From Acidilobaceae archaeon (GTDB taxonomy: Archaea; Thermoproteota; Thermoprotei_A; Sulfolobales; Acidilobaceae): a stretch of 42,310 nucleotides of DNA. The position numbers and the translations under genes were made by a program. Below, one piece after another: positions 303 through 19,231 of the stretch (positions are counted from its first letter, which is position 1; the number at the start of each line of letters is the position of its first letter). Location: contig JANXEI010000001.1 in assembly GCA_025058835.1 (NCBI GenBank), positions 1 through 42,310 of the forward strand, read 5' to 3'. The notes under the pieces are model-generated. The model worked only from the letters and a program-made list of their open reading frames with translations, made no database searches and was not told the origin of the DNA.

Positions 303-453
303 GAATCCATCGCATGGAGTTGAAAGAACTACCACTTCCGCCACTACATCCTGCCGGCCGCCCAAAGGAATCCATCATGGAGTTGAAAGGGAGCTGGCCG
401 GCTAGGAGGCCCGGCTGAGAGACAGAGTAGAATCCGTCACATGGAGCTGAAAG
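303..453 (+). CRISPR. Short degenerate CRISPR array, three repeats and two spacers
   Basis: Repeats lie at 303-326 (24 nt), 368-389 (22 nt) and 430-453 (24 nt). They share GAATCC at the 5' end, ATGGAG in the middle and TTGAAAG or CTGAAAG at the 3' end; the GAAAG terminus is typical of crenarchaeal type I-A repeats. The inner TCCAT/ATGGA arms form a small hairpin whose loop differs in each copy (CGC; a single C; CAC with a G-U pair). Spacers are 41 nt (327-367) and 40 nt (390-429). The first spacer reads open in its first frame, as expected if taken from a coding region. The sequence drift among repeats suggests an old or inactive array, although the hairpin is retained in every copy. Confidence 0.8.
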
Positions 454-544
454 TATAAGTAACAAGAAGCTGCAAAAGGAGCTCCTGGAGCATTAGAAGA
501 GAGGCGCGTAAACGCGGAACAGGGCCCCCAGCCTTTTTCCCTCG

Positions 545-551
545 TTTTAAG
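545..551 (+). promoter_or_regulatory. TATA box for the 555-residue gene
   Basis: TTTTAAG lies 43 bases before the ATG at 594 and predicts a transcript starting near 572-576 with a leader of about 20 bases. The match to the crenarchaeal TATA consensus is good. It gives the gene embedded in the CRISPR locus its own promoter. Confidence 0.5.
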
Positions 552-593
552 CCTTGGCAAGCTTTCTCTAGTTGGAGCAGAAGGGAATAGCTT

Positions 594-2261
594 ATGGACA
601 GGGACAGCATATCAGAGGCATGCAGAGCCCTCATGAGGCAGAAGCTCTCCCACTATCAGTCCCTTTTCGAGGGGAGGCTGCAGGACACGCTTAGGGGAAT
701 AGCTAGGGACTCCCAGGTCTCCAGCCTGGCTGAGGGGCTGATAGGGGGCCTAGAGAGGGTATATGCTTATTCAAAGCTCAGGCTCAGTGAAGGTTTAGCC
801 TCTGGGGAGGGAGCAGAGAAGCTTAGGGAGTTCGAGAACAGTATGCTCGAGGCCTCTCCCCCATACATTAGGGACAGCATAGACAAGGTGCTTCACGGCA
901 ACACAGCCATGAGCTCCACCTTCTCTGAAGCTATTAACGTGCTGGATGCCCTAGAGGCCATCAGCTTCACTGGCTTCATGAGGACAATAAGCTTAGTGGA
1001 GCACATGGCGTATCGTGAGTTCCTTGAAGCATTTGGGCAGGAGCTGGAGCGTGTAGCGAACGGGATGCTAGATAGCTTGTATGCACGCCACAGATTAGAC
1101 CCAGGCACTCCCTCCCTTACTGCTAAGGCCATCTTGCAGGTCGTGAAGCCACTGGCACATGATGGCTATGAGAAGAAGCTGATGAGCGAGAGCTACAAGG
1201 TGAATAGAGAGGGAGCTCAGGTCACCGTGTATCCTCCCCTAGAGGGGGAAGGGCTCCTCAGGCTGCTCAGTAGCACTGTCGACACGGCTCTGAGCATTAA
1301 CTCTAACGACTTGGAGAGGATGGTCCTTGACAGCTTCGTTTCTGTGGGCTACCGGAGGGAAGAGCTGGACCCCGATGTAATCAAGATACTAGCCAACATA
1401 GTCAGGGACCTCCTGATTGAGGTAGGCCAGCGCAGGGAGATAATTGCCAAGAGCTTGGAGCTAGCCGGCTCTAAGCTCGTGCCCAAGTTAAGTCATGGCT
1501 TAGTGCAGGACCATGCACTCTACTCCCTCTTCGCCTCGAGGATCCTAGCCCTAGCCCCCCGCAGTCCCGATGATTACATGGCAGTCAAGAGGGCTGTGCT
1601 GAGGGGGCTGTGGGGCCATGAAGTGCACTATAGCATAGAGCAGCTGGTGGACTTTACGGGGCAAGATATGCAGTCCTCCATATACCTCAGCACGATAAAG
1701 GGGAAGCTATTCATGGAGGAGGAGAGGAACAGGGTAAAGCTGAAGGAGCTGTTCAGCGACGAGAGCATAGACTTAGATACGAGGCGCAGGCTAACGCTCC
1801 TATACAATGAGGTCTTCTCCCCGGGCAGTAATGGCAGCTTGAGCCAGGTAATAGCTATCTGTGGCTTCGCGGCTAAGCTAACGAGGCTAGAGTCCACGAG
1901 AGCATGGCTCACTTCTACGGTGAGCAGTATACCAGTGCTCCTCGAGCTAGCAACAGAGCTATCTGAGGCTTTAAAGAGGAGAGGGAGGGGAGGCTCACTG
2001 ATAGCAAAAGTGAGTGAGGACTACGTGAAGGAGACCCTGCTGCCAGGAGTGGTCTCCATGGTGCCCATAGCTGCATATTACTTCGATGTAATGGAAGCTC
2101 CCCACCTTCACCGTGAAGACAAAGCCTGTGCCATAAGGGCCCTCACTATGCAGCTGGTGACGGACACGTCATACAGAGAGGTGGTTAAGATAACGGAGAG
2201 GATAAATGACATCATCATCAGTCTAGCCCGCGCAGAGAGCCGTGCTTCCAGGAGACGGTAG
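594..2261 (+). CDS. Unknown 555-residue helical protein within CRISPR locus
   Basis: I do not recognise this protein. It runs 555 residues from an ATG and appears almost entirely alpha-helical and soluble. I see no signal peptide, membrane segment, P-loop, zinc-binding Cys pairs, HD, DEDD or other nuclease signature. Charged helical stretches alternate with Leu/Ala-rich segments throughout. The C-terminus is basic (ends RASRRR), and an RRGRGG patch lies near residues 463-468. It sits between the third plus-strand CRISPR repeat (430-453) and an orphan repeat (2387-2410), with its own TATA box and no co-directional partner within 250 bases. The open frame is long and intact, and codon use resembles the cas operon more than the GC-rich neighbours. 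Possibilities are a CRISPR accessory or inhibitory factor, or cargo of an element that entered the array. That it is a real gene is fairly secure; its function is unknown. Confidence 0.8.
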   Translation: MDRDSISEACRALMRQKLSHYQSLFEGRLQDTLRGIARDSQVSSLAEGLIGGLERVYAYSKLRLSEGLASGEGAEKLREFENSMLEASPPYIRDSIDKVLHGNTAMSSTFSEAINVLDALEAISFTGFMRTISLVEHMAYREFLEAFGQELERVANGMLDSLYARHRLDPGTPSLTAKAILQVVKPLAHDGYEKKLMSESYKVNREGAQVTVYPPLEGEGLLRLLSSTVDTALSINSNDLERMVLDSFVSVGYRREELDPDVIKILANIVRDLLIEVGQRREIIAKSLELAGSKLVPKLSHGLVQDHALYSLFASRILALAPRSPDDYMAVKRAVLRGLWGHEVHYSIEQLVDFTGQDMQSSIYLSTIKGKLFMEEERNRVKLKELFSDESIDLDTRRRLTLLYNEVFSPGSNGSLSQVIAICGFAAKLTRLESTRAWLTSTVSSIPVLLELATELSEALKRRGRGGSLIAKVSEDYVKETLLPGVVSMVPIAAYYFDVMEAPHLHREDKACAIRALTMQLVTDTSYREVVKITERINDIIISLARAESRASRRR

Positions 2262-2386
2262 TGAGCCATAACACGTGTAAATGAAGAAAACTATGGAGCA
2301 CCGCTATTACGATGGCGCATGACAACAGCAGCCCCCGTCCAGCCCCCACTCCTCCGCGGGGAGAGCAGAAGGGTCAGAGCATAGAG

Positions 2387-2410
2387 GAATCCAGCACATG
2401 GAGTAGATGA
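2387..2410 (+). CRISPR. Orphan, decayed CRISPR repeat
   Basis: GAATCC then AGCAC then ATGGAG matches the 5' two thirds of the repeat at 430-453, differing at two of the first 17 bases. The 3' end reads TAGATGA instead of CTGAAAG. TCCA and TGGA can still pair. Leader-distal terminal repeats commonly decay from the 3' end, so this may be the old end of the 303-453 array, now separated by the 594-2261 gene. No other repeat lies at the expected 62-65 base spacing on either side. Confidence 0.55.
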
Positions 2411-10285: not shown

Positions 10286-10924
10286 ATGAAGTGCCTGGTA
10301 GCAACGCTGGGGTTTGACGCGGACTTCGTGCTCAGGAGGCTCATGAAGGAGGAGCAGGGGAGGCTGGTGTGCCTAGCGCTCCACGTTGAAGAGCAGGCCT
10401 GGAGCAGGGTGGAGAGGGCCTTCGCGCTGGTGAAGTACTACTGCGAGACGAGGCGCATGGAGTGCGAGCTGCAGAAGATAGGCAAGGAGAACGTGCTGGG
10501 AGAGGTCCTGGAGGTCCTCGAGAGGGAGCTGAAGAGGTGCGATGTCCTCACCCTCTACCTCACCGGCGGGCCTAGGCTGCTCGTCGCCTCTGCCATCTTT
10601 TCCTCCCTCCTCCTACCTCCATGGGAGGGGGAGAGGGTGACGCTTGAGGTGGAGGGGGAGGGCTTTGAGGCGAGGCTAGAGGTTTCCATGAAGGCCTTCT
10701 CAGCGCTGCTTAGCATGGACGAGATAGAGAAAGCTATAGTTGCGGAGGCGCTGAAGGGGCCCGTTAGGCCCTCGGAGCTGCCAAAGAGGATAAAGATCGC
10801 TAAGTCCACAGCGTACAGGAAGGTGAAGGAGTTGGAGAAGATGAGGGTGCTCGTGAAGCGGGACGGAGCAGCGGTAGAGGAGTACTTCCTTTCTGAAGAC
10901 CTCAGGAGGGCAATAAGGGTCTGA
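10286..10924 (+). CDS. csa3: Csa3, CARF-domain CRISPR-associated transcription factor
   Basis: A 212-residue regulator. The N-terminal ~130 residues form a CARF (Rossmann-like) domain: VATLGFDADFVLRRL at the start and the ligand-loop motif LTGGPRLL near residue 95. This fold binds cyclic oligoadenylates in related proteins. The C-terminal ~70 residues form a winged helix (PSELPKRIKIAKSTAYRKVKEL), with a basic recognition helix. Csa3 proteins control adaptation genes, arrays or interference operons of type I-A systems. The gene lies 206 bases upstream of csa5 in the same direction, and the intervening DNA contains a tandem repeat just before the cas promoter that is a candidate binding site. 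Whether this copy activates or represses cannot be told. Confidence 0.9.
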   Translation: MKCLVATLGFDADFVLRRLMKEEQGRLVCLALHVEEQAWSRVERAFALVKYYCETRRMECELQKIGKENVLGEVLEVLERELKRCDVLTLYLTGGPRLLVASAIFSSLLLPPWEGERVTLEVEGEGFEARLEVSMKAFSALLSMDEIEKAIVAEALKGPVRPSELPKRIKIAKSTAYRKVKELEKMRVLVKRDGAAVEEYFLSEDLRRAIRV

Positions 10925-11060
10925 GGGGCCATGAGAGCAGTGCTCCGCTTTGTGCTCGCTCCCGTCCGAGATCTGTGGGGGGAGAACCAAAACGTAGACT
11001 GTGGTTTCAAACGCGAGACTAGAAGGGCAGGCGCCGGCAGAGGTATTTAAAATAGTGCCA

Positions 11061-11096
11061 ATGAAGATATATGAAGATATCAGATAAAATTTATAA
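11061..11096 (+). promoter_or_regulatory. Promoter and putative operator of the cas operon
   Basis: Two perfect tandem copies of ATGAAGATAT occupy 11061-11070 and 11071-11080, one helical turn apart. They also give an inverted pair GATAT/ATATC. Immediately downstream AAAATTTATAAGG (11086-11098) is a good BRE/TATA element, which predicts transcription from about 11115-11120, just before the ATG of csa5 at 11131. A repeat placed next to the TATA box suits a regulator that competes with or recruits TBP/TFB; Csa3 is the obvious candidate. The intergenic stretch 10925-11060 shows nothing else I can name. Confidence 0.6.
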
Positions 11097-11130
11097 GGCC
11101 TGCCTCCCGACCTATTAGGTGGTGTAGAGA

Positions 11131-11520
11131 ATGGGAAAAGAGTCCAAGATATATAACTCGCTCATTAGGGTCCTAGCCTTTCACGTAAGAAGAGGGAACT
11201 ATGCATATACCGACATCCTGTCGAATGCCCTAAACATCGATGCGATAGAGCGTGCGCTGTACGATGCTGTGAGGGACTACCATTCTCTGTGTGCTCGCGG
11301 GCTAGAGAAGGGAGCTATGGAGGAGTGCTGCCCCTCTGTTGAGGATGTCCAGTGGGCGCGGAAGGAAGTTGATGAGCTGTTCGAGATGTATGATGCGGGG
11401 CCGCATATGTATATAGAGTTCCTCAGATTGACAAGAGAGATCGCGATAAAAGCTATCACGGAGAGTCTTAAAGTGTGTAAGGGTAAGGAGGGTGGTGGCA
11501 GTGGTTCTCAAGCCCAGTGA
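11131..11520 (+). CDS. csa5: Csa5, small subunit of type I-A Cascade
   Basis: A 129-residue helical protein in the position and size of Csa5, the small subunit that lines the type I-A effector complex beside Cas7. Visible features are a basic N-terminal helix (SKIYNSLIRVLAFHVRRGNYAY) and a central acidic helix with a CC pair (EECCPSVEDVQWARKEVDEL). ATG at 11131 follows the promoter closely. The last 20 bases overlap cas7 if the latter starts at 11501. Sequence conservation in this family is low, so the call leans on operon position as well as pattern. Confidence 0.82.
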   Translation: MGKESKIYNSLIRVLAFHVRRGNYAYTDILSNALNIDAIERALYDAVRDYHSLCARGLEKGAMEECCPSVEDVQWARKEVDELFEMYDAGPHMYIEFLRLTREIAIKAITESLKVCKGKEGGGSGSQAQ

Positions 11521-13015
11521 CAGGGTAACCCTCTCCCTCTCTGCTCGCGTCCTCATTAATGCTGAAGCTCTGAACATGGCAGAGACCGTGGGCAACGTCA
11601 GCAGGCACAGAAAGGCACCAGTTGTTGTTCCAGATAAGCAAGGGCAAGGGTACTACCTTTTCTATGTGCCGGCAGTAAGCGGCGAGTCCATAGCTCACCA
11701 CTTCCAGAAGACATTCGTGTCTATAGCGAAGGCGAAGGGCCTCCAGGTGCCAAAGCTGGAGGAGCAGGGATACTTCCTTAAGTACGCGAGCGAAGAGGTG
11801 CTAAGGAACCATTATCCAGAGATAAAGACAGAGCTAGACAACAAGATGGCAGAGCTATACAATAAGAAGAAAGAGTTAGAGGAGAAGTTAAAAAAGAAGT
11901 TAGAGGAGAAGTTAAAGGCACAAGAGATAGACATAGAGGAGAAACAGGAAGATATCAAGGGGGCTGTCAAGGAGGCAATCAGGAAGGAAATCAATATGAT
12001 CATTTTAGAGGAGAAGAAAGACGATAAATATATCGAGGAGGTGATAGAGAAGGTTATCGAGAAGGCGAAGAAGGAGGCCAAAGAGGCTAAAAACAAGATC
12101 AGTATAGTAGAGTCGCAAAAGAAAGGCAGGAAGAGGGGGGGCGGTAAACCAAAAGGATTAGGTGAACTAGTCAAAGAGGCCATCCAAGAGGCTATCGAGG
12201 AGGCAGTCGAGAGGATCAGTATGTGCAAGATGGAGAGAGTGCTTGTAGGAAGGAATGCAGTAGCTGACGTAGCAGGTTTCTTCTTCACAGGAGAGGGAAT
12301 GCCGGGCCTAAAGAGAGTTTCCCGAATTCACTTCTCCTACCTAATCCCTGCTCTCGAGACCGTGGAGCAAGGAGTCGTTAATACCCAGTCTCAGATACAT
12401 GTAAGGTACAGTCCGCAGGCAAAGGAGGGAGAGCAAGCTCTCTTTTACGTGGAGGGATCAAGTGCCCTGTATACCCTCTCCGTAGTCTTTGTTGCGAGCG
12501 ACGTGGGCAAGCTAGAGTACTGCATAGACGAGAGTAGCTCCGAAACGCAAGGGGGGAGCAGCCAAGAAGAAGCAAAGAAAGAGGAGGAGAGGGAGAAGAT
12601 AGTAGACCAAAAAGAAGCAGAGAGGGAGGAGAATGAGAGGAAGAACAGAGTAGAGGCGGCCCTCGACGCTCTCCTTGTCCTCCTCGACAGCATGACGTTC
12701 GGGGCAAAGCGCGCCCGCTACCTGCCTCACTGGCAGTACGACAGCATAGTGGCAACAGTCTCTAAAGGGCCCGTAGACTTTGTGGTCTCGCCAGCCTCCA
12801 ACCCGCACTACATCCAAGAGACCGTGAATAGGGCTAAGAGTATCAAAGGAGTTTTCGAGAACATAAGCATCTTTGTTTATGCGAGGAACCCCGATAGCGT
12901 CAAGCATCTCCAGCAGGAGCCAGGCGTTACCGTCTATAACACGCCCACCGACGTGCTAGCAGCTGCGGCAAACAAAGTGCGCGAGCTAATGGGAATAGCT
13001 CCTCAGGTGCCCTGA
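11501..13015 (+). CDS. cas7: Cas7 (Csa2) backbone subunit with large charged insertions
   Basis: The Cascade backbone protein that binds crRNA. The N-terminal part (RVTLSLSARVLINAEALNMAE, then VPAVSGESIAHHFQ) and the later DVAGFFFTGEG, RVSRIHFSYLIPALE and VEGSSALYTLSVVF are typical of the Csa2/DevR family. The protein is about 504 residues against roughly 320 for usual Csa2. The excess lies in two inserts: residues ~109-238, a Lys/Glu-rich predicted coiled coil, and ~343-382, rich in E and K. Removing both leaves a normal-sized protein. I prefer GTG at 11501, nine bases after GGAGG (11487-11491); GTG at 11492 overlaps that site. A 24-base tandem repeat lies within the first insert. The core frame is intact, so the gene is probably functional. 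Confidence 0.9.
   Translation: MVLKPSDRVTLSLSARVLINAEALNMAETVGNVSRHRKAPVVVPDKQGQGYYLFYVPAVSGESIAHHFQKTFVSIAKAKGLQVPKLEEQGYFLKYASEEVLRNHYPEIKTELDNKMAELYNKKKELEEKLKKKLEEKLKAQEIDIEEKQEDIKGAVKEAIRKEINMIILEEKKDDKYIEEVIEKVIEKAKKEAKEAKNKISIVESQKKGRKRGGGKPKGLGELVKEAIQEAIEEAVERISMCKMERVLVGRNAVADVAGFFFTGEGMPGLKRVSRIHFSYLIPALETVEQGVVNTQSQIHVRYSPQAKEGEQALFYVEGSSALYTLSVVFVASDVGKLEYCIDESSSETQGGSSQEEAKKEEEREKIVDQKEAEREENERKNRVEAALDALLVLLDSMTFGAKRARYLPHWQYDSIVATVSKGPVDFVVSPASNPHYIQETVNRAKSIKGVFENISIFVYARNPDSVKHLQQEPGVTVYNTPTDVLAAAANKVRELMGIAPQVP
11874..11916 (+). repeat. 24-base-period tandem repeat within cas7
   Basis: AGTTAGAGGAGAAGTTAAA occurs at 11874-11892 and again at 11898-11916. The period is eight codons, so the reading frame is kept (KELEEKLKKKLEEKLKA). 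It lies inside the charged insertion and points to growth of that insert by local duplication. Confidence 0.8.
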
Positions 13016-13030
13016 AAGTAGGGTCGGGAA

Positions 13031-13951
13031 ATGAGGCTAGCCTCCCTTTTTTCTCGGGTTTCCCTTCATTGGGGCTTTGTGGTTAGGCTGCCGGGCGCTA
13101 CTGCAGCCCAGCCGGCCCTTCCCATTCCCCCTGTAACTACTGTCGTGGGGGCGTTCTCAGCCCCCCTCTTCAGGCTTCTCGGAGTGCCCTTCGGGAACCC
13201 CTCCATAATTAAGGGAGGCAGGGCGATATTGAGCGAGCACTTTGAGTGCTCCCTACGCTCTACCCTCGCCGCAGCCGCTGGCCTTTCGGGAGAGGGAGGG
13301 TTAGTGATGTACCAGGAGCTTACCAAGATAGCGACCTCTCCCTACAAGGGTGGGAAGGACTGGTGGGATAAGGTGAAGATGAAAATCGGCACTCCAGGCT
13401 TCTACAACAATTTCATACCGACTGCACAAGCAGTTCAGGCGGTGGGGGCTTCATATGGGCCTGGGACACGGCTAGATTTGGCATGGGTGCTCGACGTAGA
13501 TGAGTTAGCTGACTGTCTCGCGAAAAGGGGAGTGAAGGCCTCGAGGGCAGATGTAGAGGCTGCATTAGCGCTCGCGGCCCACGGCGTGAGCAGGCTGGGC
13601 TCGAAGGAGGGCATAGCATCTGTGATGGAAGGGAAGTATATAGATAAGATAGAGATTATATACAAGGGGAGCATTAAGACGCGCTTCTACGTGCCAGAGA
13701 GATGCGTGGAGCCCCTTAGCGAGGAGGTGGGCAAGGCTCAGCTCTGGGACACAAGCTACCAGCCGGCTACATACTATGCGCCAGGTGTTCTCTCGAAGAC
13801 TTTATGGGTATCGTCCTCCCCCCTCGAGTACAGGCTACTGGATGATATGGGCTGCGCGGCATATAAGCTAGTGAGCGAAAAAAGAATTGGAGAAAGCAAA
13901 AAAAGAATAATATTGGGAATAGTGGTGGGTGAGAAGCCAAGAGAGAAGTAA
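13031..13951 (+). CDS. cas5: Cas5 of type I-A Cascade
   Basis: A 306-residue RAMP protein that caps the 5' handle of the crRNA in Cascade. The N-terminus (SLHWGFVVRLPGATAAQPALPIPPVTTVVGAFSAPL) shows the family pattern of a first beta strand followed by a PP-T-GA helix start. ATG at 13031 lies 15 bases after the cas7 stop with GGGTCGGGAA upstream. Unlike its neighbours it has no long charged insertion, only a basic C-terminal tail (SEKRIGESKKRIILG). The next gene starts 19 bases after its end. Confidence 0.88.
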   Translation: MRLASLFSRVSLHWGFVVRLPGATAAQPALPIPPVTTVVGAFSAPLFRLLGVPFGNPSIIKGGRAILSEHFECSLRSTLAAAAGLSGEGGLVMYQELTKIATSPYKGGKDWWDKVKMKIGTPGFYNNFIPTAQAVQAVGASYGPGTRLDLAWVLDVDELADCLAKRGVKASRADVEAALALAAHGVSRLGSKEGIASVMEGKYIDKIEIIYKGSIKTRFYVPERCVEPLSEEVGKAQLWDTSYQPATYYAPGVLSKTLWVSSSPLEYRLLDDMGCAAYKLVSEKRIGESKKRIILGIVVGEKPREK

Positions 13952-13970
13952 AGGGTGAGGAGGCACGAGC

Positions 13971-15266
13971 GTGAGCATCCCTCTGTTACCCGTGAGCACC
14001 CTCGGGCGGAGCTTCCAACTCCTTGCCCTGGCTCTGGGAGACACAGAGGGCCAGGCAAAAATTGATGAGGAGACAGACTCGATAGAGTTCCCTTCAAAGG
14101 ACGCCTATGTCAGATTCGTAAAGAACGCATACGAAGCCCTCTATGACCTCCAAGTCGGCAAAGTTCTGCTGCTGAAAAACGATGTGCCACCGAATGTTGA
14201 GGAAGAAATGTGTGGCAGGGAAGAAGAGGAGGAAGAGGAGAGGTCGGAAAAGAAGGGGAAGAGGTCACAGAAGGAAAGGAAAGAGAAAAAGTCACCAAGG
14301 CTCTATGGTAGCGACTATTCGCTAAGTGTTATCACTCTAAAAACTCAACAAAAATCAATACAAACTCAACAAAAATCAACGTTGAGAGATGAGCTAAGAG
14401 GCCGTAATGTCTGTCAGGCGGCGACTTCATACGTGAGGAGAGTTATTACGGAAAAGGGGGCACTTGGGAAATTCCTTGAGAAGCTACCAATAGTGCTTAG
14501 GGCTACCCTGTACAATGAAGAGAGGCCGTCTATGGGTATCGCTAGGAAGAGCAATATGATATACCTCGACAGCGTCGGAATGGCTTTCTTAGGTATGGTG
14601 GCGAGCTTCGTGGGAACTAAGAAAGACTTAGAGGAGAAGGAGGTGGAGTACTACGTGGTCCCCACAGACCTCACAGATCCCACTTACGTTTTCGCGGTGC
14701 TCCAAGTCCTGAAGCTGCCGGGAGAGGAAGAAAAGCTCCCTTCCATCGTCCAGAGGCTGGAAGAGAACGTCGGCCTGTCTTCAGATCTCGCTACTTATCT
14801 CGCCCTCTTATACAGGGCTATTATAGCGGAGGAAGCAGGGAAGAACGCCTTCGGGCTCGCAGAGAAAGCGGCATATGAGAGGTTCCTCATCGTGAAGGTG
14901 ATGGCTGGTGGGAATAGGCCTAACGTCTCGTGGATGGCACCCTTATCTCTCTCCGTGCCCTTGGAGGTGGTGAGGGAGCAGAGGCTGGAGAGAGCTCTGA
15001 AAAGCATATACGACCTGATACCTTTTGTAGAGGGAGGAGGGAGTTATAAAAAGAGGGCTAAGGATGTGGTGAGAGAGTGCTTTAACTCCCTCGCTCTCTC
15101 TATATTCACCAACGTTCACTCTGTGGGAAGGAAAGAGCTTCTCTACAAGTGCTCACGCGCCTCTTTAGTGGCTCTTCGCGAGGCGGAGGAGAAGGACAGG
15201 GAAGATGAGAAGACTCCCCATTTCCTGAGGGCAGTAAAAGAGATCATTGAAGCCTTGGGGATGTAA
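13971..15266 (+). CDS. Cas8a-like large subunit of type I-A Cascade
   Basis: A 431-residue protein at the place where the type I-A large subunit is expected, between cas5 and cas3'. Its similarity to Cas8a2/Csa4 is weak by eye: KVMAGGNRPNVSWMAPLSLSVPLE in the second half is the most family-like stretch. The large subunit recognises the PAM and helps open target DNA. A Glu then Lys/Arg-rich insertion spans residues ~80-113 (CGREEEEEEERSEKKGKRSQK), followed by a heptapeptide repeat TQQKSIQ/TQQKSTL. GTG at 13971 follows GGTGAGGAGG. It ends one base before the cas3' ATG. The assignment is mostly positional. Confidence 0.68.
   Translation: MSIPLLPVSTLGRSFQLLALALGDTEGQAKIDEETDSIEFPSKDAYVRFVKNAYEALYDLQVGKVLLLKNDVPPNVEEEMCGREEEEEEERSEKKGKRSQKERKEKKSPRLYGSDYSLSVITLKTQQKSIQTQQKSTLRDELRGRNVCQAATSYVRRVITEKGALGKFLEKLPIVLRATLYNEERPSMGIARKSNMIYLDSVGMAFLGMVASFVGTKKDLEEKEVEYYVVPTDLTDPTYVFAVLQVLKLPGEEEKLPSIVQRLEENVGLSSDLATYLALLYRAIIAEEAGKNAFGLAEKAAYERFLIVKVMAGGNRPNVSWMAPLSLSVPLEVVREQRLERALKSIYDLIPFVEGGGSYKKRAKDVVRECFNSLALSIFTNVHSVGRKELLYKCSRASLVALREAEEKDREDEKTPHFLRAVKEIIEALGM
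14341..14379 (+). repeat. 21-base-period tandem repeat within cas8-like gene
   Basis: AAACTCAACAAAAATCAA occurs at 14341-14358 and 14362-14379, a perfect 18-base match with a period of 21 (seven codons). It encodes two TQQKS units just after the charged insertion and has a base composition unlike the rest of the gene. Confidence 0.85.
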
Positions 15267-15267
15267 G

Positions 15268-17385
15268 ATGTGCGAGCCATGCGGAAGGGAAAGGCAGCTG
15301 AGAGATGCCATAATGAAGGCCCTATCTGAGGGGAAGAAGCTGATCTTCGTCTTCGCCCCCACGGGCTACGGCAAAACGCGCGTCTCCCCCTACCTCCTTC
15401 ACGCGGCTCGCGAGAAAGGCCTTGCCTCTCGGCTGATCCATGTGGTCCCCACGCGCGCTCTCGTGAAAGAAATATACGAGGAGAAGTTCAAGGGGCCAGC
15501 AAAGGAGTGTGGCATCCATGCGGCCTATCAGTCGCTAGACAGGCTCTGCGAAGGTATCAAGAGCCCCTACTTCCTGGCGGAGCTCGTCGTGACCACCCTG
15601 GAGAGCTTTATCCTGAACGCCTTCAAGCTGCCCCCTGCAGAGTTTACTAAGGTCGTCAAGCGTTCCGCCAGGGAGTCCGCTAAGGTCGTCAAGTATTCCA
15701 CCGAGGGGCACTACTACCCCTCCGTGCTGGCACTCCTCTCCTCCATAGTCGTCTTTGACGAGGCGCACCTCTACATATCGGAGGCAGAGGGGAAGCCCGT
15801 TACTCTCGTTGTGGCTGCTGCGAGGGCTCTCCTGGAGATGAACGTGCCGGTAATCATATTGACTGCGACTATGCCTGTAGTGCAATTTGAGTACGTGTGG
15901 AAGGCGTTGAAAGTGAGAATGGATGACGTGAAGGTGCTCTACCTCTGCCCAGCCCCAGGCAGCTGCAAGCAGGCAGAGAAGATGAAGGAGGAAGGCTACG
16001 ATGTGGAGGAGATACAAGATGACCCACAGAGGTTCAATAAGATAGAGTGGAGGACGAGCGTTGTAAGCTACAAGGCTGCCCTGGATATAGCCAAGAAAAA
16101 GTGCCAGAATGAGCTGGTTCTCTGGGTGTCCAACACTGTCGGCGGAGCTGTGAGAGCGTTCGACCAGTTAGATGGCTGCGAGAGAGTCCTGATACATGGG
16201 AAGCTGAGCGAGCTAGACAAGGAAGCTGCTATAAAGAAAATGGAGGAGCTAAAGGGAGAGCTAGGGGAGGAACGGGGCGACAATCGCTCCAGTCCCTGCA
16301 CCTCCGAGAAGAGCATGAAAGAGCGAGAGGAAGAGCTAGACAAGAAAGCTGCCAGAGAGAGAAAGGGCATAATCGTGGCAAGCCCCATTGCAGAGGTGGG
16401 GTTGGACATAGATGCTACAACCCTCATATCTGAGGCGACGAGCATAGAGAGCCTTGTGCAGAGGGCGGGAAGGCTATACAGAAAGAGGAGCGAAGGCAGG
16501 GCTGAGGTTATTGTGATCGAACCCGAAGAGGAAAAGGAGGAAAAGAAGGGCGTGAGGGAGAGTGCGGAGAGCGAAGAGGAGAAAATGAAGAGGGCGATAG
16601 ATATGGTGATACAAGAGATAGAGAACCGCCTTGAGCAGGGGCCTGCTGCCATAGACTGGAGGTCACCAGCCGCACTCGGGGGGAGAATCTCCTATGTAGA
16701 GCTCATGGAAAGCCTTACAGAGAAGAGAAGGGAAGATTATTCAGAGGATCACTCGAAGAGGGGAGGGAGAGGGAAAGGCAAGGAGAGAAGGGAGGGTGAG
16801 AAAAGAGAGGAAGATTACTCGCTGAGTACGTCCTATGCTGAGCTCTTCAAAGGCATTGTTATGTTTGACTCTAGACCACGCCAAGTCCTTGAGGCCCTCA
16901 GTAGCGTACCAGGTGCAAGAGAAGACCATGGCGCTCTCCTCCATAGCCTCTCCCTCGTGAAAGTGAAGGTAGGCGAGAAGGAGAGGGAGAATACTATCGA
17001 TTGTCCTTTTCTTCCTCGCCTACGGATAGATTATGTTATCATCAGCACAACTGACCTGAAACGAGACTGGGTGAAGTGGGAGATGGATAGGAAGGAGGTA
17101 GAGATAGAAGCAATAGTGCGGTATTCAGGTACGGAGAAGAAAGAAACGTTCTACTCCAGAGCGCTTGCTAACGTGCTGCTCTTCGGAGGGGAGAAGGGGA
17201 GGAGCATGAACATTCACGACATCAGGAAAATTATGGACGAGCTCACGAAGAGAGCAGAGGAGAAGCTAGAGCAGGAGGGAAGGAAGGGCGTCCGTCCTAC
17301 CATCATAGATTACTTCTTGGTAGCGAGGGAGGGGGCATACTCTCCTGGAAGGGGGTTGGGAGTAGATGAGGCCCCTAGAGAGTAG
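15268..17385 (+). CDS. cas3': Cas3' helicase of type I-A CRISPR-Cas
   Basis: A 705-residue superfamily 2 helicase that unwinds target DNA for the separate Cas3'' nuclease. Walker A is APTGYGKT (30-37), the DEAH box is at residues 164-167, motif III is LTATMP, and motif VI is QRAGRLYRKR from residue 398. ATG at 15268 follows the cas8-like stop by one base; an in-frame TTG at 15247 would only add seven residues inside the upstream gene. Charged inserts appear near residues 330-365, 418-445 and 485-520. The first contains a near-copy of a 20-base segment lying 123 bases upstream, which suggests in-frame duplication. It overlaps cas3'' by 20 bases. Confidence 0.93.
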   Translation: MCEPCGRERQLRDAIMKALSEGKKLIFVFAPTGYGKTRVSPYLLHAAREKGLASRLIHVVPTRALVKEIYEEKFKGPAKECGIHAAYQSLDRLCEGIKSPYFLAELVVTTLESFILNAFKLPPAEFTKVVKRSARESAKVVKYSTEGHYYPSVLALLSSIVVFDEAHLYISEAEGKPVTLVVAAARALLEMNVPVIILTATMPVVQFEYVWKALKVRMDDVKVLYLCPAPGSCKQAEKMKEEGYDVEEIQDDPQRFNKIEWRTSVVSYKAALDIAKKKCQNELVLWVSNTVGGAVRAFDQLDGCERVLIHGKLSELDKEAAIKKMEELKGELGEERGDNRSSPCTSEKSMKEREEELDKKAARERKGIIVASPIAEVGLDIDATTLISEATSIESLVQRAGRLYRKRSEGRAEVIVIEPEEEKEEKKGVRESAESEEEKMKRAIDMVIQEIENRLEQGPAAIDWRSPAALGGRISYVELMESLTEKRREDYSEDHSKRGGRGKGKERREGEKREEDYSLSTSYAELFKGIVMFDSRPRQVLEALSSVPGAREDHGALLHSLSLVKVKVGEKERENTIDCPFLPRLRIDYVIISTTDLKRDWVKWEMDRKEVEIEAIVRYSGTEKKETFYSRALANVLLFGGEKGRSMNIHDIRKIMDELTKRAEEKLEQEGRKGVRPTIIDYFLVAREGAYSPGRGLGVDEAPRE
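16210..16352 (+). repeat. Imperfect direct repeat, 123-base spacing, within cas3'
   Basis: GAGCTAGACAAGGAAGCTGC at 16210-16229 recurs with one change at 16333-16352. The spacing equals 41 codons, and both copies read ELDK(E/K)AA in the helicase frame. The stretch between helicase motifs IV and V is correspondingly longer and more charged than usual. Confidence 0.7.
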
Positions 17386-18382
17386 CTGGCCTGTAGCATT
17401 TTACAGTAGTAAGGTGAGAGTGCCGCTGTCAAAGCACTTGGCAGCAGTTACCCTCTGCGCTGCGGAGCTCTTCTCGCATGAGCTTCCTCTCTTGAAGGAG
17501 AGGCTCTCGTCCCTCTTCGAGGAGGGACGGGAAGGGGAGAAGCAAGAGGAGAGGCTCCCCCACTCCATTGGGAGAACCCTCCTGCTCGCAGCAGCCCTGC
17601 ACGACCTCGCGAAGGCCTCCCCGCGCTACTACTATGCTTTTCTTAAAAAGGGCAGCGGGAAGATCTCCTTTATGTACCATGAGCTGGCCTCTGCATACAT
17701 AGTATATAGGTCTGCAGTCCATGAGAGTCGGGAGATGAGAAGGATCTTCTGGACAGCAGCAAAGGTCATAGCACGCCACCATGCTGCAATGGAGGGCCGT
17801 CACCCGCAGGACATAGGAAAGGTGAGAGGGGGGGAGTCGTTATCCGATGTGAGAGAGCGGGTAAGCAGTATCCTTCAAGGCCTTTGGCAACCGGAAGCGC
17901 AGAAGGTGGTAGACAAAGTGATAGAGGAAGTGAGAAGCAAGCTGGAAGAGAGCTCCTCGAGGTTCACAGGCTATGTGGCTAACGAGATGAGGGCTGCTCG
18001 CGACATGCTAGATCATGTGAGAGATCAGATCCCCCGCATCCCCCGCATAGTAAAGTCCTTCAGGAAGAGCAAGGGTTCAGACCTCTTTGATATCCTGCGT
18101 AGGGACGTTGAGCAAGTCATTAACATACTTGCAAAGGTGTATGATGAAGATAACAAGAAGAACTACTACCCCATCATCGCTCCCCTCTCAGGGGCACTCA
18201 TCATAGCAGACAACCTCGTGGCAGACTACGAGAGGAGGACATCTGACGACAAGGCCTCCCCAATCTATATGAGGCACTGGCAGAAGGAGCTAATGAGGAG
18301 AGGCAGGGACATCAGCTCCCTCTCTTGCCTCCAGTACGTTGAAAGCTACGTCTCCAAATCCAATGCTCCTGCTCTTCCCTAG
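17366..18382 (+). CDS. cas3'': Cas3'' HD nuclease of type I-A CRISPR-Cas
   Basis: A 338-residue HD-family nuclease that degrades DNA opened by Cas3'. The metal-binding HD pair is at residues 79-80 (LHDLAKASPRYY), followed by YHELASA and ARHHAAMEGRHP, matching the H-HD-H-H-like pattern of stand-alone Cas3'' proteins. The C-terminal half is a helical domain. ATG at 17366 lies within the end of cas3', giving a 20-base overlap and translational coupling. Its last 93 bases are also coding on the other strand, for the C-terminal end of Cas6. Confidence 0.9.
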   Translation: MRPLESSWPVAFYSSKVRVPLSKHLAAVTLCAAELFSHELPLLKERLSSLFEEGREGEKQEERLPHSIGRTLLLAAALHDLAKASPRYYYAFLKKGSGKISFMYHELASAYIVYRSAVHESREMRRIFWTAAKVIARHHAAMEGRHPQDIGKVRGGESLSDVRERVSSILQGLWQPEAQKVVDKVIEEVRSKLEESSSRFTGYVANEMRAARDMLDHVRDQIPRIPRIVKSFRKSKGSDLFDILRRDVEQVINILAKVYDEDNKKNYYPIIAPLSGALIIADNLVADYERRTSDDKASPIYMRHWQKELMRRGRDISSLSCLQYVESYVSKSNAPALP

Positions 18383-19231
18383 CCCCATCCTAGCAACAAA
18401 GCCCAGCAGCCTGTCCGTTACCCTCTCCATCCTCTTGCTCCCCAGCACGTATATTACGTAGCCAATGGGCCCCCTCACCTTACTCAGCTTCCCGTCCCGA
18501 GACCTGTATAGCGCAGTCACGGGCTTCAGCTTGTAGTTCAGCTCGTACATAAAAACGTCTGCAGCCCTCCCCACTGCATAGGGCATGTAGCTCTCCCTCG
18601 CCTGCTCGCCCCTCACTATTGCTATCCACTCCCTCGCTGCGGCAGAGAGGAGGTAGGCAGGCGTGGGCACCAGCTTGTAGGCCTGCCCCAGCTCCCTTAT
18701 GCTCTTCCTACCGCGAAGCCGCGGGGGCGTCATGAGCTCGATGGGCAGGAGCAGCGGGGTCCTGATGCTCATCTTGAAGGGCCTCCCGGCCTCGAGCCCT
18801 ATGCTCAGCCTCTTCACCTCCTCCACGTCTATCCTGCTGACGGAGAAGAAGAGGCTCTCACTGCCTATCCTTACCTTCCCCTTGCACCCCATGGAGGCCT
18901 CCAGGGCCTCTGAGGGGTCCTCGGCGTATATCGCTACCCTCCCCTCCAGCCTCTCCCCCGCCCTTGCGATCACCATCTTCCCGGTGGAGAAGAGGGCCAT
19001 GTTCCCTCTCATGAGGGCAGTGACCCTAGCCTCTTTCATGGCCTTCCTCCCCTTCATCAGCTCGGCGAGCTGGGGGAGGCAGCCAGAGAAGATTGCCTGC
19101 TTCGTCACGCGGGAGGTGAAGGGAGGGAGGATCACGTCTGCCTCGGGCGGCACGAACTCTAGGGTAGTGGTGATCACGTAGCCCCGAGCCCCATCTATCA
19201 AGGAGAGGAAGAACTCCCTCAGCGTCCCCAC
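18290..19231 (-). CDS. cas6: Cas6 crRNA-processing endoribonuclease
   Basis: A 313-residue ferredoxin-fold RNA endonuclease that cuts the CRISPR transcript within the repeat. The glycine-rich loop GLGKSRSIGFGDV near the C-terminus is the hallmark of the family. The N-terminal strand (GYVITTTLEFVPPEADVILPPFTSRVTKQAIF) also fits. GTG at 19231 is preceded by a TATA element (TATTAAGCC on the minus strand) about 20 bases upstream, suggesting a leaderless mRNA made independently of the main operon. The gene is convergent with cas3'' and overlaps it by 93 bases; the glycine loop lies in that overlap. The short TCCAT/ATGGA hairpin of the repeats in this window is a plausible substrate. Confidence 0.92.
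   Translation of the reverse strand: MGTLREFFLSLIDGARGYVITTTLEFVPPEADVILPPFTSRVTKQAIFSGCLPQLAELMKGRKAMKEARVTALMRGNMALFSTGKMVIARAGERLEGRVAIYAEDPSEALEASMGCKGKVRIGSESLFFSVSRIDVEEVKRLSIGLEAGRPFKMSIRTPLLLPIELMTPPRLRGRKSIRELGQAYKLVPTPAYLLSAAAREWIAIVRGEQARESYMPYAVGRAADVFMYELNYKLKPVTALYRSRDGKLSKVRGPIGYVIYVLGSKRMERVTDRLLGFVARMGLGKSRSIGFGDVAFNVLEAREGADVPASPH

Follow-up and report, generated by a model that had tools for sequence, protein, structure and literature searches.

The 42,310-nt stretch of DNA analysed here (the window) forms the left terminus of C11, a 606-kb contig of an Acidilobaceae genome (29 contigs, 1.19 Mb, an estimated 92.65% complete), and its position 1 is the contig edge itself. 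The left side of the window is occupied by a pair of divergent CRISPR arrays that have a leader region in common (55-302). One of these arrays is represented by its end, a minus-strand repeat (GAATCCGTGCATGGAGTTGAAAG, 32-54), and is cut by the contig edge. The other lies on the plus strand and comprises a leader-proximal repeat (303-326), a 41-nt spacer (327-367), a second repeat shortened by two bases to 22 nt (368-389), a 40-nt spacer (390-429) and a third repeat (430-453), both spacers being read directly from the sequence. This third repeat forms the left border of a repeat-free insert of 1933 nt (454-2386, plus strand), which is closed on the right by a terminal repeat of the same orientation with a worn 3' end (2387-2410, plus strand); i.e., with the leader on the left, the insert is placed within the array, immediately before its last repeat. 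For comparison, the normal spacers of the genus have a median length of 42 nt and a 95th percentile of 48 nt.

The leader region has a copy at the right end of the contig. Specifically, positions 188-302 together with the first repeat recur there in inverted orientation (C11:605966-606103; 139 nt, 97.8% identical), and the contig breaks within this copy, which adjoins host-type genes. Inverted leader copies at both contig ends could permit a 600-kb inversion. Genome-wide, about 20 repeats were found, against 282 in a congeneric sister species with the same repeat (Acidilobaceae isolate SKW39, hereafter G003). Part of this spacer shortfall may stem from assembly loss, since several arrays of the present genome end at contig edges.

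The insert carries an intact ORF with an ATG start (594-2261, plus strand), and a TATA-like TTTTAAG at about position 545 is a putative promoter element. The encoded 555-aa protein (62 kDa, pI 6.1) has a high content of Leu, Ser, Glu, Ala and Arg; its last 30 residues are basic, and it lacks a clear transmembrane segment. It is helical in low-confidence models; AlphaFold predictions from the single sequence reached a mean pLDDT of 37.7 for the whole protein and 39.0 for the C-terminal 340 residues, and were unusable. The GC3 of the ORF is 0.67, vs 0.74-0.96 for the housekeeping genes of the window. Cut-off ORFs are possible at both edges of the insert, each of them weak: a candidate 3' end of a gene begins 2 nt past the left repeat (455-496, plus strand; ISNKKLQKELLEH and a stop), its 13 codons being also the length of one spacer, and a candidate start of a further gene (MAHDNSSPRPAPTPPRGEQKGQSIE...), occupying 2312-2386 of the insert, enters the terminal repeat and stops there (2312-2410, plus strand). 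If real, these two fragments would suggest that foreign sequence extends right up to the repeats on either side. The sole long direct repeat that flanks the insert is the CRISPR repeat, with no duplication of spacer-like sequence. The borders lack terminal inverted repeats and a target duplication, and no transposase match was found; the insertion of an insertion sequence or transposon was rejected on these grounds. An Rfam scan of positions 1-2600 returned no match.

The identity of the terminal repeat was assessed through its core, GAATCCNNCNCATGGAG, which occurs without mismatches 14 times in the 1.19-Mb genome, once in the copy at 2387 and otherwise exclusively at CRISPR loci (the window array, C11:579k, the right end of C11, C22 and C23). 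Because every other exact copy of the core stands at a CRISPR locus, a chance match at 2387 is very unlikely. The repeat matches 17 of the 21 specified positions, whereas the maximum elsewhere (window positions 2500-42310) is 15 of 21, in agreement with the initial annotation, which had recognized here an orphan repeat with a decayed 3' end. Its mismatches are confined to the final six bases, and over its first 18 bases, GAATCCAGCACATGGAGT, it is identical to the repeat at the leader-distal end of the C11:579k array; a decayed 3' end is common in the repeat farthest from the leader. The two repeats that flank the insert differ, the left one bearing one substitution relative to GAATCCNNNNCATGGAGTTGAAAG and the right one its worn 3' end.

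Host sequence common to G003 begins at 2516 and includes a DUF5622 gene, a glycosyltransferase gene and a molybdopterin oxidoreductase operon. At the syntenic place, G003 has neither the array nor the 555-aa gene, and a putative cysteine synthase gene adjoins the DUF5622 gene. The array is thus bordered by host DNA on its right side, from 2516, while its left side reaches the contig edge. Behind the glycosyltransferase gene and the molybdopterin oxidoreductase operon, about 8 kb beyond the insert, lies a set of type I-A genes (10286-19231): csa3, cas11a, cas7, cas5a, cas8a, cas3 helicase and HD genes, and cas6. The GC3 of the cas genes (11131-18382) is 0.57-0.66, below the 0.74-0.96 of the other genes of the window; this suggests recent acquisition of the entire cas operon.

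Relatives of the 555-aa protein were sought widely. Pfam, PADLOC and PHROGs profile searches gave no match at E <= 10, and a PDB search gave no relative. NCBIfam yielded just TilS_C (E 0.013) and bcl-2 (E 0.066), two unrelated families that were rejected because both scores fall below the curated cut-offs. Phage and plasmid collections and IMG/VR contained no homologue of the gene and no source element, and genome searches from the genus up to the phylum Thermoproteota (five genomes of the same genus and several hundred further ones) returned chance-level matches only, with E values such as 0.0036 (398 genomes) or 0.0065 and 0.014 (229 genomes). The initial annotation had described the gene as full-length, intact and of no family known to it, and had proposed to ask whether its homologues are repeatedly found close to CRISPR repeats or cas genes. 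The first two points stand, as the ORF is an uninterrupted 555 codons whose coding frame is backed by two foreign spacers (see below) and the Pfam, PADLOC, PHROGs, NCBIfam and PDB searches all lacked a usable match; the recurrence was not seen, with zero homologues in the genomes searched.

The evidence on the origin of the gene comes from CRISPR spacers. A set of 298 usable spacers, from this genome and three genomes of the same genus that share the repeat, was compared with the 42-kb window. Two of the 278 spacers examined from G003 match within the 555-aa gene, one at 1098-1141 on the plus strand (37/44, 84%; contig C15, JAOAKH010000023.1) and one at 785-824 on the minus strand (32/40, 80%; contig C2), whereas outside these two sites no spacer matches the window better than 26/38 (68%). 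When the insert was shuffled 100 times with its dinucleotides preserved, the top match reached 72% (mean 62%) and the top second match 65%. An independent blastn search, with the insert as query and 214 genomes of the order as database, placed the C15 spacer at the top (E 1.9e-6). When other weak DNA matches in the order were inspected for flanking CRISPR-like repeats, many such repeats were present only at the G003 locus, a confirmed array, and at L091. A third G003 array of 68 spacers, which serves as a negative control, gave no further match to the gene.

The similarity extends to the protein level. The translated spacers align with the gene product as DPGSPSLTARAILQ vs DPGTPSLTAKAILQ and SEDLASKEAAEKL vs SEGLASGEGAEKL, scoring 63 and 41; across 20 shuffled proteins the best scores mostly fell within 28-33, apart from one outlier of 39 and one of 49. 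Seven of the 12 codons changed between the G003 spacers and the gene are synonymous, and in frame the changes are synonymous or conservative. Since the spacer differences fit its reading frame, 594-2261 is a real coding frame. Pattern scans of IMG/VR and GTDB with the two spacer-derived peptides recovered no element; the GTDB scan retrieved the G003 spacer itself and seven matches in bacterial records. Regarding the flanks, CCT adjoins the 785-824 site and would fit the CCN PAM of Sulfolobales (PMC4390879), and the 1098-1141 site has TTA instead. The true targets of the G003 spacers are relatives of the gene, not this copy. Spacers are mostly drawn from mobile elements, and for this reason the gene or a close relative would be carried by an element that infects the genus. 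To judge from the matches, the gene looks like a CRISPR target rather than a part of the immune system.

A second piece of this kind is found on contig C22 (approximately 222759-223209), where 451 nt separate two complete repeats that differ by one substitution, adjacent to the leader and hence in the newest position. Besides an 86-codon ORF that has a ribosome-binding-like sequence, the piece includes the start of a CopG/RHH (ribbon-helix-helix) gene (Pfam PF01402, E 1.6e-5) that is truncated at the first base of the repeat; i.e., foreign-type coding sequence abuts the repeat as a spacer would, with no spacer remnant. A search for the source element of the 451-nt piece found none. Long gaps between repeats also occur in G002, another genome of the genus, with 436 nt (L058 3338-3773) and 707 nt (L059 706-1412), the latter holding a beta-lactamase-family gene (PF00144) that reaches the repeat edge. 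The same genome contains many scattered remnants, of one to three repeats each, of a second repeat type, GAATCCATTCAATGGAATTGAAAG (L056, L057, L058, L059, L060, L061 and L063), some of them 0.5-1.2 kb apart with ordinary DNA between.

Collectively, we interpret positions 454-2386 as a pseudo-spacer, a 1.9-kb virus or plasmid fragment that separates the final two repeats of a short chromosomal array associated with type I-A (probability roughly 0.8). The origin of the insert in a mobile element, as read from the sequence comparisons, is very probable. Presumably the whole 1933 nt is foreign and arrived in a single event, the gene being the part of the segment from which its foreignness is deduced, and presumably the gene, where it now stands, plays no part in CRISPR. 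The approximately 42-nt segments at the edges, which could be old spacers, count against the pseudo-spacer reading. That DNA had entered the array and split it was already suggested in the initial annotation, and this is supported by the foreign-type DNA between co-oriented repeats and by the lack of array and gene at the corresponding place in G003. The 555-aa gene would be an ordinary gene of an element infecting this archaeal genus, and its relatives would reside on circulating elements targeted by sister-species spacers. As a guess made with low confidence, its product could be structural or replication-associated in a virus or plasmid.

Entry into the array would have taken place either through the CRISPR adaptation machinery, acting on an over-long prespacer, or through recombination between element and array. 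Over-long capture by Cas1-Cas2-Cas4 has a chance approaching even, favored by repeats that are in register, by the absence of transposon marks and by the newest position of the C22 piece. For the window insert, two features argue against capture: the flanking repeats are unequal, whereas a fresh capture would start with identical ones, and the position is the old, leader-distal one. Entry by recombination with a matching spacer or with a repeat is a serious contender at somewhat under even odds, and other routes have a small share. It is a tentative idea, based on two sequenced loci in one genome (1933 and 451 nt), that type I-A adaptation here repeatedly captures prespacers of a kilobase or half a kilobase; arrays would then be an entry door for whole foreign genes, and the intact 555-aa gene may be expressed from the array.

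The strongest alternative dispenses with aberrant spacer capture altogether and has an element recombine homologously with an existing spacer or repeat, followed by deletion. It is one of the two routes proposed by the authors who described SiL-E1, a comparable insert in Sulfolobus islandicus (PMC3718332). Short repeats are known to recombine in Sulfolobales, and the leader-distal position and unequal repeats fit such an event better than a fresh capture, but the only long direct duplication around the insert is the CRISPR repeat, with nothing spacer-like beside it, and on C22 the foreign coding sequence meets the repeat edge with no remnant of a spacer. We regard this alternative as possible and carry it at clearly less than even weight.

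A different geometry would result if a leadered mini-CRISPR array had arrived on the element, as in the viruses SPV1 and SPV2, and element and mini-array had integrated next to a host repeat. The presence of just two to three repeats and a leader unlike those of the other arrays of this genome would suit such an arrival. However, the worn terminal repeat separates the insert from the host block beginning at 2516, which puts foreign DNA inside the array and not around it, and the second leader copy, at the opposite contig end, adjoins genes of host type; a mini-array is accordingly improbable. Fusion of element DNA to array repeats by metagenome misassembly might be suspected in a 29-contig assembly with breaks inside CRISPR leaders, but it is quite improbable in view of the unique array sequence left of the insert and the host DNA right of it, of 24-nt repeats that are far shorter than usual k-mers, and of two such loci in one genome in addition to published isolate cases. 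Most improbable of all is retention of the gene at the array because it serves as a CRISPR accessory, regulator or anti-CRISPR: the gene is intact with a promoter-like TTTTAAG upstream, its GC3 is near the values of the cas genes, the distance to a complete type I-A interference operon is 8 kb and anti-CRISPR genes are often found on mobile elements, but all PADLOC and Cas models lack a match, no homologue turned up in the five same-genus and several hundred further genomes, host metabolic genes intervene before the cas operon, 555 aa is large for an anti-CRISPR, and the gene is targeted by sister-species spacers.

Of the CRISPR-related roles proposed initially, mobile cargo is upheld by the two matching G003 spacers, whereas effector, regulator and inhibitor are not, given the missing PADLOC and Cas matches, the missing homologues and the distance to the cas genes. 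Nothing ties the 555-aa gene to these genes, and a CRISPR function is not supported. The pseudo-spacer reading carries a caution for annotation, as an unknown gene beside CRISPR repeats may be the target of the system and not its component. Fragments of mobile elements between repeats had been seen before in two strains of Sulfolobus, without being explained; the two pieces in an Acidilobaceae genome, the third genome to show them, suggest a phenomenon that recurs and can be studied. It is relevant to the question of how tightly spacer length is controlled during adaptation, and to CRISPR arrays as a possible route of gene gain.

Several known systems resemble the locus in part. The mini-CRISPR arrays of SPV1 and SPV2 are likewise short, leadered and adjacent to mobile-element genes in Thermoproteota, but there the array lies within a viral genome, whereas here foreign DNA lies within a chromosomal array bordered by host genes (PMC6858448). 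Racrs, the solitary-repeat RNA anti-CRISPRs, share with it a lone CRISPR-like repeat near a mobile-element gene, although the orphan repeat of the window is where an array ends, in decayed form and next to host genes (PMC10651486). In CRISPR locus F of S. solfataricus, an 899-bp fragment partially matching a pNOB8-like plasmid lies between two repeats, an irregularity of a type that a review describes as rare (PMC4390879, section 4.5). That fragment is shorter, the array is leaderless, the plasmid match is only partial and no targeting by spacers was reported. A further parallel is SiL-E1, approximately 2 kb of pING1-like plasmid DNA between identical repeats in CRISPR_2 of S. islandicus LAL14/1, which its authors call a pseudo-spacer and attribute either to an error in the processing of protospacers or to recombination with a spacer that matched (Jaubert et al., 2013; PMC3718332). 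Both cases consist of about 2 kb of gene-bearing mobile-element DNA between two repeats of a crenarchaeal chromosome, and SiL-E1 is missing in related strains. SiL-E1 has identical flanking repeats followed by further spacer-repeat units, whereas the right repeat here ends the array and has decayed in its final six bases; in the identity of its flanking repeats, the C22 piece is nearer to SiL-E1 than the window insert is. Additionally, SiL-E1 has five ORFs and a known source (82% to pING1-like plasmids), whereas the origin of the present insert is deduced from sister-species spacers. With its uncharacterised protein, the window locus belongs with SiL-E1 and locus F, a kind that is rare and already described.
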